From assembly GCF_018278905.1 (NCBI RefSeq), contig NZ_CP046600.1, positions 3,348,001-3,412,000 of the forward strand: a stretch of 64,000 nucleotides of DNA. Reading direction: 5' to 3'. The position numbers and the translations under genes are program-made. Source of the stretch: Mycobacterium spongiae (GTDB lineage Bacteria; Actinomycetota; Actinomycetes; Mycobacteriales; Mycobacteriaceae). The notes beneath the pieces are model-generated. The model saw only the letters and a program-made list of their open reading frames with translations. It was not told the origin of the DNA and searched no databases. Numbering within the stretch: position 1 is the first letter of the stretch; the number at the start of each line of letters is the position of its first letter. This document shows positions 43,945 through 58,900 of this stretch, in pieces.

Positions 43945-46900
43945 ATGTCCTTTCTGTCCATATCGCCCGAACTTGTCGCCACCGCCGCGGGTGATCTCAC
44001 CAACATCGGTTCCACACTTGAGGCCGCCAACGCGGCTGCCTCGGCGGCCACCACCGAGCTGCTGGCCGCCGGCGCCGACGAGGTGTCAACTCGAATCGCG
44101 GCATTGTTCGGCACGTACGGCCAGGAGTATCAGGCGATCAGCGCACAGGTCGCGGTGTACCAGCAAGAGTTCGTCCAAACACTGCAAGGCGCCACCAGTG
44201 CCTACAAGTGGGCCGAGGCCGCCAACGCCGAGCAGACCCTGCTAGGCCTGATTAATCCTGCCACTCAAGCCCTGCTTGGGCGCCCGTTGATCGGCGACGG
44301 CGCGAACGCGACAACCCCGGGTGGGGCCGGCGGCGACGGTGGCCTGCTCTACGGCAGCGGCGGCAACGGCGCTGCCGGCGCGCCAGGCCAAACGGGTGGC
44401 GCAGGCGGGTCGGCGGGGTTGTTGGGCAACGGCGGCAACGGCGGAGCGGGCGGAACGGGCGGTGCCGCGGGTGGGGCCGGCGGCTCCGGCGGCTGGCTGT
44501 ACGGCAATGGCGGCACCGGCGGCGCTGGCGGGATCGGCGGTGGCGCGGGCGGTGCCGGTGGCCGGGCTTGGCTGGTGGGCCATGCAGGTATGGGTGGGGC
44601 CGGGGGCACGGGCGGCGTTCCCGGTGCCCTCGCTGGCGGCTCCGGCGGCGCCGGCGGCAGCGGTGGGTTGCTTTACGGCGACGGCGGCAACGGCGGCAAC
44701 GGCAGTGCTGGGGCCGACAATGCCGCCGGCGATGGCGGTGCGGGCGGCGCCGGCGGCGATGGCGGCAGCGCTGGGCTGTTCGGGCATGGGGGCGTTGGCG
44801 GTGTGGGCGCTGATGGAGGCAGCGGCGGGCCGACTGTCGGCGGGGCTGACGGCGGGGCTGGCGGGGCCGGCGGTGACGGCGGTCGCGGCGGGTGGCTTTA
44901 CGGCAATGGCGGCGCCAGTGGTGTCGGCGGCAACGGCGGCACCGGGCCCGGCAACGGCGGGGCTGGCGGTGCCGGCGGCAATGGCGGTGCCACTGGGCTG
45001 TTCGGACATGGTGGCACCGGAAGCGCCGGCGGCACCGGCGGGGCCGGCGGTGGTTTCAGCGGCGACGGCGGTGACGGCGGCACCGGCGGCCGGGGCGGAT
45101 GGATTTACGGTGACGGCGCCAGCGGCGGCGCGGGCGGGCACGGCGCCAATACCGGTGCTGGTGGTGCTGGTGGTGACGGCGGTGCTGGTGGGGCCGGCGG
45201 ACTGATCGGGGCCGGCGGGGCCGGCGGGGCTGGTGGGGCCGGACAGGGCGGCTCGTCCGGTGGAGCTGGCGGGGCCGGCGGCCATGGCGGCCATGGCGGT
45301 TGGCTGACCGGTGGCGGCGGCAACGGCGGGCACGGCGGGCAAGGCGGTAACGGTGTCACCGGCGGAGGGCCCGGCGGTGACGGCGGCAGCGGCGGCAACG
45401 CCGGTTGGCTCGCCGGTAGCGGCGGTAACGCCGGCAACGGCGGCAACGCCGGCAACGGCCCCACCAACGGCGGCCGCGGCGGCGCCGGCGGCAGCGCCGG
45501 GCTCGTCGGCCGCGGTGGCAACGGTGGGGCCGGCGGCAACGGCGCTGGCGGCGGCTTAGCCGGGCCGGACGGTGGGGCCGGCGGCGCCGGTGGGGCCGGC
45601 GGCAACGGTGGTGGACTGATCGGCGACGCTGGCCATGGCGGTAGCGGCGGTAATGGGGGTATCGCCACCAACGGAGGCGACGGTGGCGCCGGTGGCGCCG
45701 GCGGGTCGGCGGGGCTGTTCGGTAACGGCGGTAACGGCGGCATCGGCGGTGCCGGCGCCACCAGCACTTCCGATGGCAGCGACGGCGCTGGCGGTAACGG
45801 CGCGGCCGCCGGCCATGGTGGCTGGCTGTACGGCAGCGGCGGTAACGGTGGGGCCGGCGGCATCGGCGGCGGTGCCGGTGGGGCCGGCGGTAACGGCGGC
45901 TTCTTCGTTGGCAATGGCGGTAATGGCGGCGCTGGGAGTATGGGCTCTGCCGGCGGGGCTGGCGGTGCCGGTGGCACGGGCGGTAATCCTGGCTGGCTGT
46001 TCGGGGCTGGCGGCACGGGCGGGGCCGGAGGCGCCGGCGCGAATGCGATAACGCCGGGTGCTGCCGGTGGCGCCGGTGGTGACGGCGGTGCCGCCGGGCG
46101 CGGCGGGCTGTTTATGCGCGGTGGTGACGGCGGGCGCGGCGGCGCCGGCGGAACCGGTGCTGACGGCAGCCCTGCCGTTGGTGACGGTGATCCCGGCGGT
46201 GTCGGCGGCGCTGGTGGTGTGGGTGGTGCTGGCGGCGCCGGCGGCAGGGCCCCGCTGGTCTTCGGCAACGGTGGGGCCGGCGGACTTGGTGGAGACGGTG
46301 GTGGCGGCGGCGCGGGCGCCGCGGGCGCCGCTAGCGCCACCGGGATCGGTGGTGACGGCGGTAGGGGTGGCGCCGGTGGCGCCGCCGGCGCGGGCGGGCT
46401 TGGTGGCGCTGCCCAGATCTTCAGCCAAGCCGGCAGCACCGGCATCAGCGGCGATGGAGGTGACGGCGGGACCGGTGGTGCGGGTGGCGCCGGCGGTGAC
46501 GGCACCGACGCCACCGCGGGCAGCGGCGCGACCGGCGGTACCGGATTCGCGGGTGGGACCGGCGGTGTGGGTGGGGCCGGCGGTGACTCCGGCGCCGGCG
46601 GCACCAACGGCTCCGGCGGTGTCGGCGGTATAGGCGGTATAGGCGGCACCGGCGGCGCTGGCGGCAGCGGCGCCGACGGTGGAGCTGGGGTCGCCGGCGC
46701 CGATGGCGGCCAAGGCGGTACTGGCGGCATCGGCGGATCAGCAGGTGCCGGTGGCGTGGCCGGCGCCGGCGGCACCGGCGGCACCGCAGGCGCCGACGGG
46801 TCATCCGGCGACGGCGGCACCGGTGGTGCGGGCGGCCTCGGCGGTGACGGCGGCACCGGCACCGCCGGCGCGGCCAACGGCGGCACCGGCGGCCAGGGCG

Positions 46901-55900: not shown

Positions 55901-58900
55901 GCACCGGCACCGCCGGCGCGGCCAACGGCGGCACCGGCGGCCAGGGCGCCGCCGGCGGCCAAGGCGGAACCGGCGGCGCCGGTGGTGTGGCCGGCGCCGG
56001 TACCGGCGGCATCCAAGGCGACGGCGGGGCCGGCGGTAACGGCGGCACCGGCGGTGACGGCGGCACCGGCGGGGCCGGCACCGACAACAGCGCCACCCTC
56101 GACATCGCCGGCGGCGCCGGCGGTGACGGCGGCGCCGGTGGGACCGGCGGGGCGGCCGGCGCCGGCGGTGACGGCACCACGATGGGCGCCGCCGGGTCAT
56201 CCGGCGACGGCGGCACCGGTGGTGCGGGCGGCCTCGGCGGTGACGGCGGCACCGGCACCGCCGGCGCGGCCAACGGCGGCACCGGCGGCCAGGGCGCCGC
56301 CGGCGGCCAAGGCGGAACCGGCGGCGCCGGTGGTGTGGCCGGCGCCGGTACCGGCGGCATCCAAGGCGACGGCGGGGCCGGCGGTAACGGCGGCACCGGC
56401 GGTGACGGCGGCACCGGCGGGGCCGGCACCGACAACAGCGCCACCCTCGACATCGCCGGCGGCGCCGGCGGTGACGGCGGCGCCGGTGGGACCGGCGGGG
56501 CGGCCGGCGCCGGCGGTGACGGCACCACGATGGGCGCCGCCGGGTCATCCGGCGACGGCGGCACCGGCGGTGCGGGCGGCCTCGGCGGTGACGGCGGCAC
56601 CGGCACCGCCGGCGCGGCCAACGGCGGCACCGGCGGCCAGGGCGCCGCCGGCGGCCAAGGCGGAACCGGCGGCGCCGGTGGTGTGGCCGGCGCCGGTACC
56701 GGCGGCATCCAAGGCGACGGCGGGGCCGGCGGTAACGGCGGCACCGGCGGTGACGGCGGCACCGGCGGGGCCGGCACCGACAACAGCGCCACCCTCGACA
56801 TCGCCGGCGGCGCCGGCGGTGACGGCGGCGCCGGTGGGACCGGCGGGGCGGCCGGCGCCGGCGGTGACGGCACCACGATGGGCGCCGCCGGGTCATCCGG
56901 CGACGGCGGCACCGGTGGTGCGGGCGGCCTCGGCGGTGACGGCGGCACCGGCACCGCCGGCGCGGCCAACGGCGGCACCGGCGGCCAGGGCGCCGCCGGC
57001 GGCCAAGGCGGAACCGGCGGCGCCGGTGGTGTGGCCGGCGCCGGTACCGGCGGCATCCAAGGCGACGGCGGGGCCGGCGGTAACGGCGGCACCGGCGGTG
57101 ACGGCGGCACCGGCGGGGCCGGCACCGACAACAGCGCCACCCTCGACATCGCCGGCGGCGCCGGCGGTGACGGCGGCGCCGGTGGGACCGGCGGGGCGGC
57201 CGGCGCCGGCGGTGACGGCACCACGATGGGCGCCGCCGGGTCATCCGGCGACGGCGGCACCGGTGGTGCGGGCGGCCTCGGCGGTGACGGCGGCACCGGC
57301 ACCGCCGGCGCGGCCAACGGCGGCACCGGCGGCCAGGGCGCCGCCGGCGGCCAAGGCGGAACCGGCGGCGCCGGTGGTGTGGCCGGCGCCGGTACCGGCG
57401 GCATCCAAGGCGACGGCGGGGCCGGCGGTAACGGCGGCACCGGCGGTGACGGCGGCACCGGCGGGGCCGGCAGCACCGGCCAAAACGGCGGCAGCGGCGG
57501 AACCGGCGGAACCGGCGGGGCGGGTGGTGCCGCCGGCGCCGGCAGCGCTAACGGCATCGGAGGCGACGGCGGAACCGGCGGCGACGGCGGCCAAGGCGGC
57601 GATGGCGGAAACGGCACCAACAACCAAGACGGCGGCAGCGGCGGAACCGGCGGCGACGGCGGTGCGGGTGGTGCCGCCGGCGCCGGCAGCGTTAACGGCA
57701 CCGGTGGAACAGGCGGCACCGGCGGCACCGGCGGCACCGGAGCAGACGGCGGAGCTGTAACCGGAGCGAGCACACCCGGAACAGACGGTGGAGCTGGCGG
57801 CGACGGCGGGGCCGGCGGTGCCGGCGGCGACGGCATTGGAGGGACCGGTGGGGGAACCGGTGGAACAGGCGGCGCTGCCGGCGATGGCGGCGACGGCAGT
57901 CCACCCGCGCTGATGTCGTCGCCCGGCGTACCAGCCGGCACTGGCGGCATCGGCGGAACCGGCGGCGACGGCGGTACCGGCGGTGCTGGCGCCGGCACCG
58001 GTGGAACCGGAGGTAGCGGCGGCGAAGGTGGTACCGGCGGCCACGGTCCCGACGACGAGTTCAGCGGCGACGGCCCCGGCGGAACAGGCGGCGCCGGCGG
58101 CGACGGCGGGATCGGCGGGACCGGCGGCACCGACGGCGGGACCGGCGGGACCGGCGGCGCCGGCGGCACCGGCGGCACCGGCGGCGAGGGCGGCGAGTTC
58201 GGCGGCGCCGGCGGGATAGGCGGTGCGGCCGGCACCGGTGGCGACGGCGGGACCGGCGGAAGCGGGGGCGGCGACGGGGGCGCTGGCGGCACCGGCGGCA
58301 CCGGCGGCACCGGTGGCCAAGGCGACGGTCGAGCCGGCCAAGCCGTACCCAGCGACCCCGGCGGTGCCGGCGGCGCCGGCGGCGCGGCCGGCGCCGGAGG
58401 CAACGGTGGCGATGCTGGCGCCGGCGGCAACGGCGACGGCGGCAAGGGCGGCGACGCCGGCACCGGCGGCGCTGGCGGCGATGGTGGCGACGCCGAGCAA
58501 GGTGAGACTGGCGTTGGCAGCGGTAAGGGCGGCGACGGCGGCACCGGCGGCACCGGCGGCACCGGCGGCACCGGCGGCATCGGCACCGGTACCGGCAGCG
58601 GCGGTGCGGGCGGCGATGCCGGTACCGGCGGCCAAGGCGGCGACGGCGGCACCGGCAGCTCCAGCCTCACACTCAACGTGCAGGGCGGAGTGGGCGGCAC
58701 CGGCGGAGCCGGCGGCGACGGCGGCACGGCCGGTTCGGGCGGGTTCGGGTCGACTCTAGGCGCCGACGGCAGCTCCGGTGACGGCGGCCAGGGCGGCCAG
58801 GGCGGCACCGGCGGAGCCGGCTCAACCGGTACGACCGGTGCCGCCGATGGCGGCACCGGCGGCCAGGGCGCGGCCGGTGGGGCCGGCGGTGATGGCGGTG

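Follow-up and report, generated by a model that had tools for sequence, protein, structure and literature searches.

Among described proteins, PE_PGRS33 and Wag22 of Mycobacterium tuberculosis combine a PE domain, a GRPLI linker and a GGX-rich PGRS part, and both are predicted to be helix-modular, with 27 and 54 helices, respectively (PMC9436101, PMC10216338). The GRPLI motif is described as conserved in PE_PGRS proteins, and published models depict PGRS domains as polyglycine-II sandwiches, which are predicted to grow by added helices and to tolerate large insertions and deletions (PMC9436101, PMC10216338). Reported PGRS lengths reach more than 1,000 amino acids (PMC9436101), and the domains are usually treated as irregular low-complexity tracts. 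Here we analyse G2, a gene of the sponge-dwelling M. tuberculosis relative Mycobacterium spongiae, that shares the PE domain, the GRPLI linker and the GGX-rich PGRS part with these proteins but encodes a chain of more than 5,000 amino acids in which a fixed 116-amino-acid unit is present in ~31 near-identical copies. G2 lies in a 64,000-nucleotide stretch of the M. spongiae chromosome, the window, whose positions serve as coordinates throughout; C1 denotes the M. spongiae chromosome, and G006, G046, G063 and similar labels denote other mycobacterial genomes.

The nearest parallel is provided by the PPE_MPTR proteins, ESX-5 substrates in which large cassettes of smaller repeats are likewise tandemly duplicated, although they join a PPE domain to pentapeptide-2 repeats whereas G2 joins a PE domain to GGX repeats; export by ESX-5 has been reported for both PE_PGRS and PPE_MPTR proteins (PMC4858275). 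PE_PGRS17 and PE_PGRS18 form a further tandem PE_PGRS pair; they too have upstream DNA in common, and sequence has been exchanged between them. However, in that pair a short tract was exchanged between two genes, whereas in G2 a 10.7-kb array is uniform within one gene (PMC1762029). In-frame size changes of repetitive pe/ppe genes are also known in M. tuberculosis, where in-frame structural variants and variable-number tandem repeats of PE_PGRS/PPE genes have been listed; the G2 unit is longer and its array far larger than these variants, G2 being known from one genome (PMC12817950). We found no description of the module, or of a near-perfect PE_PGRS array of such size, in the searched literature, which mostly excluded subscription papers, and the array is unmentioned in the consulted parts of the M. 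spongiae genome paper (PMC11361433).

A homogenized 348-bp array in a giant PE_PGRS gene

G2 is an open reading frame (ORF) of 5,669 amino acids (433 kDa; 43945..60954) that, by ORF call and translation, maintains one glycine-rich frame throughout. It lies on the plus strand, as do its upstream neighbour G1 and all features assigned below to either gene. Self-identity at a lag of 348 bp is continuous over 46797-57472, with breaks in the match at a single unit column, and Tandem Repeats Finder (TRF) reports a period of 348, 30.7 copies and 99% matches. These analyses, together with direct comparison of the units, define an array of 30 complete units plus 236 bp (46797..57472). They bear out the earlier note on this DNA, which had counted 30 units of 348 bp plus 232 bp and one silent marker: a phase starting at 46801 gives the 232-bp remainder and one starting at 46797 the 236-bp remainder of the same array, shifted by 4 bases.

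The only variable site among the 30 units is unit position 28, where 26 units have T and four, units 9 (49608), 13 (51000), 24 (54828) and 29 (56568), have C. Because position 28 is a third codon position (GGT or GGC, both glycine), the variant is silent. C occupies this position in 9/9 units of G1 and, when read in register, in the outlying unit of G2, so T is probably a derived state that spread through the array. There are no private changes over 30 x 347 sites, which by the rule of three places the divergence since the last homogenization below ~2.9e-4 per site, if the assembly record is right. A tract of 10.4 kb with one variable column is beyond chance, and the array is real in the assembly record. 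The copy number in G2 is provisional, because sibling arrays shift frame in the PacBio RSII/HGAP3 assembly from which it is taken. Outside the array, G2 contains two diverged 348-bp units (58774..59492; TRF, 2.1 copies, 85% matches).

To compare units between arrays we kept 368 of 522 profile matches, those spanning 310 or more of the 347 columns. The nearest unit lies in the same array for 343 of them, a raw count without label shuffling. Mean unit identity is 0.758-0.961 within arrays and 0.648-0.840 between arrays, and the within-array mean exceeds every between-array mean in 10 of 11 arrays. Units are thus more alike within than between arrays, as expected under concerted evolution, and the proposal that a 116-residue higher-order unit had been amplified and homogenized agrees with both the unit identity and this within-array clustering. 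The same near-perfect pattern is seen in an independent assembly, that of G063, whose array of 26 units of 345 bp has variants only in units 2, 3, 4 and 26.

Analysis of pN/pS (nonsynonymous relative to synonymous differences) was limited, like the consensus units described below, to stop-free units of the most frequent length. Comparing units of the same array gives a mean pN/pS of 0.25-0.59 for 12 of 13 pieces and 0.00 for G063; comparing consensus units gives 0.23-0.65. These values, uncalibrated for GC-rich codons, suggest moderate protein-level constraint on the module.

The assignment of the array to a 5,669-codon PE_PGRS gene, also made in the earlier note, is upheld by the ORF and by Pfam matches. 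The PE domain (residues 4-94; 43954..44226) matches PF00934 above cut-off (E 1.3e-32), the PGRS model PF21526 matches residues 116-185, and GRPLI stands between PE and PGRS in the translations of both G1 and G2. The PE helices are followed by YKWAE, which fits the type VII secretion motif YxxxD/E in its E variant. No PPE model matches residues 1-232, in which Pfam finds PE and PGRS only. G2 therefore has the PE_PGRS sequence features examined, with an unusual higher-order organization. A minus-strand ORF of 4,865 amino acids that crosses the array (45105-59702) was rejected as a gene, since a GC-rich unit whose length is a multiple of three explains it. Searches of a protein database with G2 residues 1-140 (4,863 candidates) and G1 residues 445-800 (7,989 candidates sharing most words) gave no match at E <= 0.001, and they also failed to list the query proteins themselves or known PE proteins. 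These empty results probably reflect a scoring effect on glycine-rich or length-restricted candidates and not rarity. A control search for the PE family gave a match above cut-off in Escherichia coli, which is unexpected for this family.

The module in M. spongiae and other mycobacteria

A DNA search with the unit over 297 genomes gave matches at E <= 0.001 in 294. Most of these reflect general PGRS-like similarity, so we limited carriers to genomes with a best E < 1e-50, of which there are seven among the 296 others of the genus (G236, G160, G006, G202, G063, G119 and G046). The best arrays of five of these seven were inspected and have periods of 345, 348, 357 and 360 bp. Aligned in amino-acid mode, 14 consensus units (8 from M. 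spongiae and 6 from five other species, with two pairs being pieces of one array each) match along their whole length, with 53 of the 120 columns invariant. Five GGX blocks, which in the G2 unit occupy residues 6-21, 28-34, 37-48, 60-78 and 89-103, stand at corresponding positions in 10 of 13 consensus units; the G063 and G236 units fuse the second and third blocks, and the G160 unit lacks the second by the block definition used.

A degenerate pattern for the module loop TDNSA(N/T) has matches in 12 of 396 genomes, against 0 of 396 for a reversed control pattern: 137 in M. spongiae, 37 each in G006 and G202, 34 in G160, 6 in G046, 3 in G119 and 1 each in six others. G063 and G236 have a variant loop that the pattern misses. 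In a rough tree of 16 genomes (panB, with a second gene for 11) the carriers are spread over several branches, and the module is therefore probably old in the carrier group. With its nearly constant length and its loops at fixed positions, the module, which 14 consensus units from six species share, provides a definable PGRS unit that can be expressed, solved and counted.

Giant PE ORFs also occur elsewhere, with 5,409 amino acids in G160 and 6,016 in G119. The G119 ORF (C70:36500-55800) is longer than G2 and is without a regular period, so a giant PE ORF need not contain such an array. A plasmid-borne repeat was considered and rejected, a search of 72,556 plasmid records giving one weak Streptomyces record.

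Within M. spongiae the 348-bp unit has at least 875 matches, many of which represent general PGRS similarity. Among the matches listed, the best clusters are the window itself, C1:181-190k, 762-784k, 1413k and 4,749-4,763k. Besides G1 and G2, five further M. spongiae loci carry arrays that align to the module. An array at C1:981.9k (locus C1:981500-994500, array at ~2085-9518 of the locus), has 21 units of 354 bp in a PE_PGRS ORF of 3,956 amino acids, and its unit is homologous to the 348-bp module in the consensus-unit alignment. This array is also near-perfect: a single variant is restricted to unit 5, variants at two sites each recur in three dispersed units, and the last unit has additional changes.

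Inspection of long PE ORFs located 348-bp repeats at C1 ~1398-1402k and 1406-1408k. The region C1:1395000-1415000 contains three adjacent PE_PGRS ORFs (2,495, 1,879 and 1,943 amino acids) in which the 348-bp repeats are increasingly diverged, and this trio is possibly an older state of the same process. At C1:3989500-3998500, a PE_PGRS ORF of 2,578 amino acids contains two repeats, a near-perfect one of 588 bp and another of 354 bp; units near 585-621 bp are also present at G063 and G160 loci.

As judged from these alignments, the G2 array is part of a wider phenomenon, with several self-homogenizing module arrays in a small set of mycobacteria. The contrast drawn in the earlier note between this array and irregular PGRS tracts is too narrow: the array is not the sole case, since others are present in the adjacent gene, at the five further loci of the same genome and in the five other species whose best arrays were inspected. 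A unique event was rejected on the basis of these arrays in the same genome and in other mycobacteria.

Proposed recombination and export, and competing explanations

We favour, at a probability of roughly 65%, the reading that an old PGRS module of ~116 residues was amplified in frame and homogenized within each giant gene by recombination between units, lengthening a protein that is probably exported by ESX-5. The PGRS part would be built from this conserved module (345-360 bp across species), one copy of which in an ancestral gene would have been amplified in frame. Its uniformity would be kept by unequal exchange, gene conversion or both, with G1 retaining older, diverged units. The PE domain would route the protein out through the type VII (ESX-5) system, the repeated GGX blocks and loops would extend a polyglycine-II sandwich, and a higher unit number would lengthen a strip, at the surface or secreted, that serves multivalent contact or acts as matrix. 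The data show the array itself, its homology to other arrays, the homogenization within arrays, the open frame and the moderate protein-level constraint, whereas export, fold, length as the varying trait and function are inferred.

No MutS domain was found in the M. spongiae genome, in a search whose control was positive in 11 of 14 genomes, and one NucS is present. NucS restrains recombination between diverged copies. If it does so here, exchange would be unhindered between identical units and reduced between diverged ones, an effect that would sharpen homogenization. Exchange of whole 348-bp units would keep the frame by arithmetic. The arrays preserve traces of recombination in bacteria that lack MutS. 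They also allow PE_PGRS length variation to be tested directly by long reads.

If packed as in published PGRS models, a chain of 5,669 amino acids would be of the order of 100 nm long by our estimate, which uses two layers, the helix spacing and ~13 residues per helix. The last figure follows from the length of PE_PGRS33 and its 27 helices (PMC10216338). M. spongiae has 179 PE and 82 PPE genes, and a Western blot with a PE_PGRS antibody indicates, at the level of the group, that its PE_PGRS proteins are strongly expressed, occur in culture filtrate and exceed those of M. tuberculosis in size (PMC11361433). PE/PPE proteins of up to 270.5 kDa have been detected in an M. marinum proteome (PMC11395111). 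A bolder extension, in which one ancestral module serves as the standard brick in a few slow-growing mycobacteria and the giant genes act as recombination-driven length dials, gaining or losing complete bricks in frame while keeping these uniform, so that a clone would make surface strips of adjustable length, seems to us improbable.

Several observations weigh against the favoured reading. AlphaFold2, run on four units without an alignment, gave a mean predicted local distance difference test score of 29.9 and supports no fold, speaking neither for nor against the published sandwich models; no Pfam family, PGRS included, matches four array units taken by themselves at E 0.1. M. spongiae is represented by one genome, and the G2 protein by its sequence. 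The nearest-unit count is a raw one, and the pN/pS values are uncalibrated for GC-rich codons. The own181k array ties with its sister array (0.817 vs 0.817), so exchange between genes or a recent split also contributes. In addition, sibling arrays shift frame, with three shifts at C1:181-190k, two in the 760-786k gene and ten at 4.75 Mb. Frame shifts also occur in arrays of other species, with five in G202 and many in G006. The frame-shifted arrays examined, G006 excepted, have single-base length differences relative to neighbouring units, and the shifts could stem from errors left by long-read sequencing or from genuine decay. The arrays also serve as a warning that neither the size nor the frame call of a giant PE_PGRS gene is safe in older long-read assemblies.

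If the frame shifts are errors, they bear on the assembly. The M. spongiae FSD4b-SM record, one chromosome of 5,581,157 bp (CP046600), was produced from one PacBio RSII SMRT cell with HGAP3 and three rounds of Quiver, followed by Illumina correction with Snippy (PMC11361433). HGAP3 pre-assembly, Quiver and short-read correction could have given a real array the wrong size and evened out its units, such that the identity of the units and the count of ~31 would be partly technical, and both this pipeline and the single-base length differences in frame-shifted siblings from the same assembly are compatible with such an effect. However, that assembly retained unit-private variants and scattered two-state sites in the 981.9k array, which increases trust in the uniformity of G2, and it kept clear unit divergence in other arrays. 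The independent G063 assembly shows the same near-perfect pattern, and we regard this partly technical account as unlikely. If the shifts are instead real decay, they would fit neutral drift of the repeat, in which growth and uniformity follow from recombination without MutS-type repair, length serves no function, and the main reason for an intact frame is that the units are divisible by three. The missing MutS domain and the 134 predicted pseudogenes of M. spongiae (PMC11361433) point in the same direction, and the in-frame bias of pe/ppe structural variants has been ascribed by its authors to mechanism and not to selection (PMC12817950). Drift sits less easily with ORFs that are open throughout in G2, G1, the 981.9k gene and the G063, G160 and G236 genes, with the pN/pS values given above, and with the conservation of loops and blocks across species; it is a tenable but less probable account.

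Long identical direct repeats are recombination-prone, and, as proposed in the earlier note, unit number might change often within the species; such variation might be under selection for antigenic or adhesive effects. In PE_PGRS/PPE genes of M. tuberculosis, changes in copy number and large in-frame insertions and deletions are indeed known (PMC12817950, PMC10216338). Nevertheless, the comparison includes a single M. spongiae genome and the host range of a sponge isolate offers no direct case for antigenic variation, and a size-variable surface antigen appears improbable.

The paralogue G1 and the panB locus

G1 (36516..42470) lies upstream of G2 and encodes 1,984 amino acids; ORF call, translation and comparison with G2 identify it as a tandem paralogue. 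TRF and profile matches delimit nine diverged 348-bp units in G1 (37847..40978), which have nine distinct protein sequences. The start regions of the two genes (36161-37145 and 43590-44567) are 97.5% identical over 985 bp, including ~355 bp of upstream DNA. The upstream region of G2 (43590..43944), which is duplicated before G1, includes an AGGAG-like ribosome-binding site near the ATG. The 3' part of G2 (58068..61007) aligns with that of G1 (39584-42523) at 87.9% over 2,973 aligned columns. The shared start regions and 3' parts establish G1 and G2 as a tandem duplicate, G1 with old units and G2 with the homogenized array.

We compared the DNA flanking panB, which ends at 36131, with that of ten relatives, counting alignments of more than 200 bp. 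In 10 of 10 relatives the DNA within ~1 kb behind panB matches M. spongiae only from window-equivalent positions 66,358-66,406, and G236 has one extra weak match of 215 bp at window-equivalent 65,054. Because the relatives' DNA joins only at ~66.4 kb, the intervening segment of ~30 kb, which separates panB from the neighbour it has in the relatives, contains G1 and G2, has its window portion at 36132..64000 and continues to about window-equivalent 66,360-66,410, is specific to M. spongiae among the sampled genomes: it is present at the panB site in M. spongiae and in none of the ten relatives. No PE gene like G2 was found in the ~10 kb behind panB in any of them, matches to its first 115 residues peaking there at 45% (G202). 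G236 has a 45% fragment, and in G006 and G202 there are PE matches of 40-45% on the opposite side of panB. The ~30-kb segment also encodes an LCM-type methyltransferase (62071-63030) and another PE gene.

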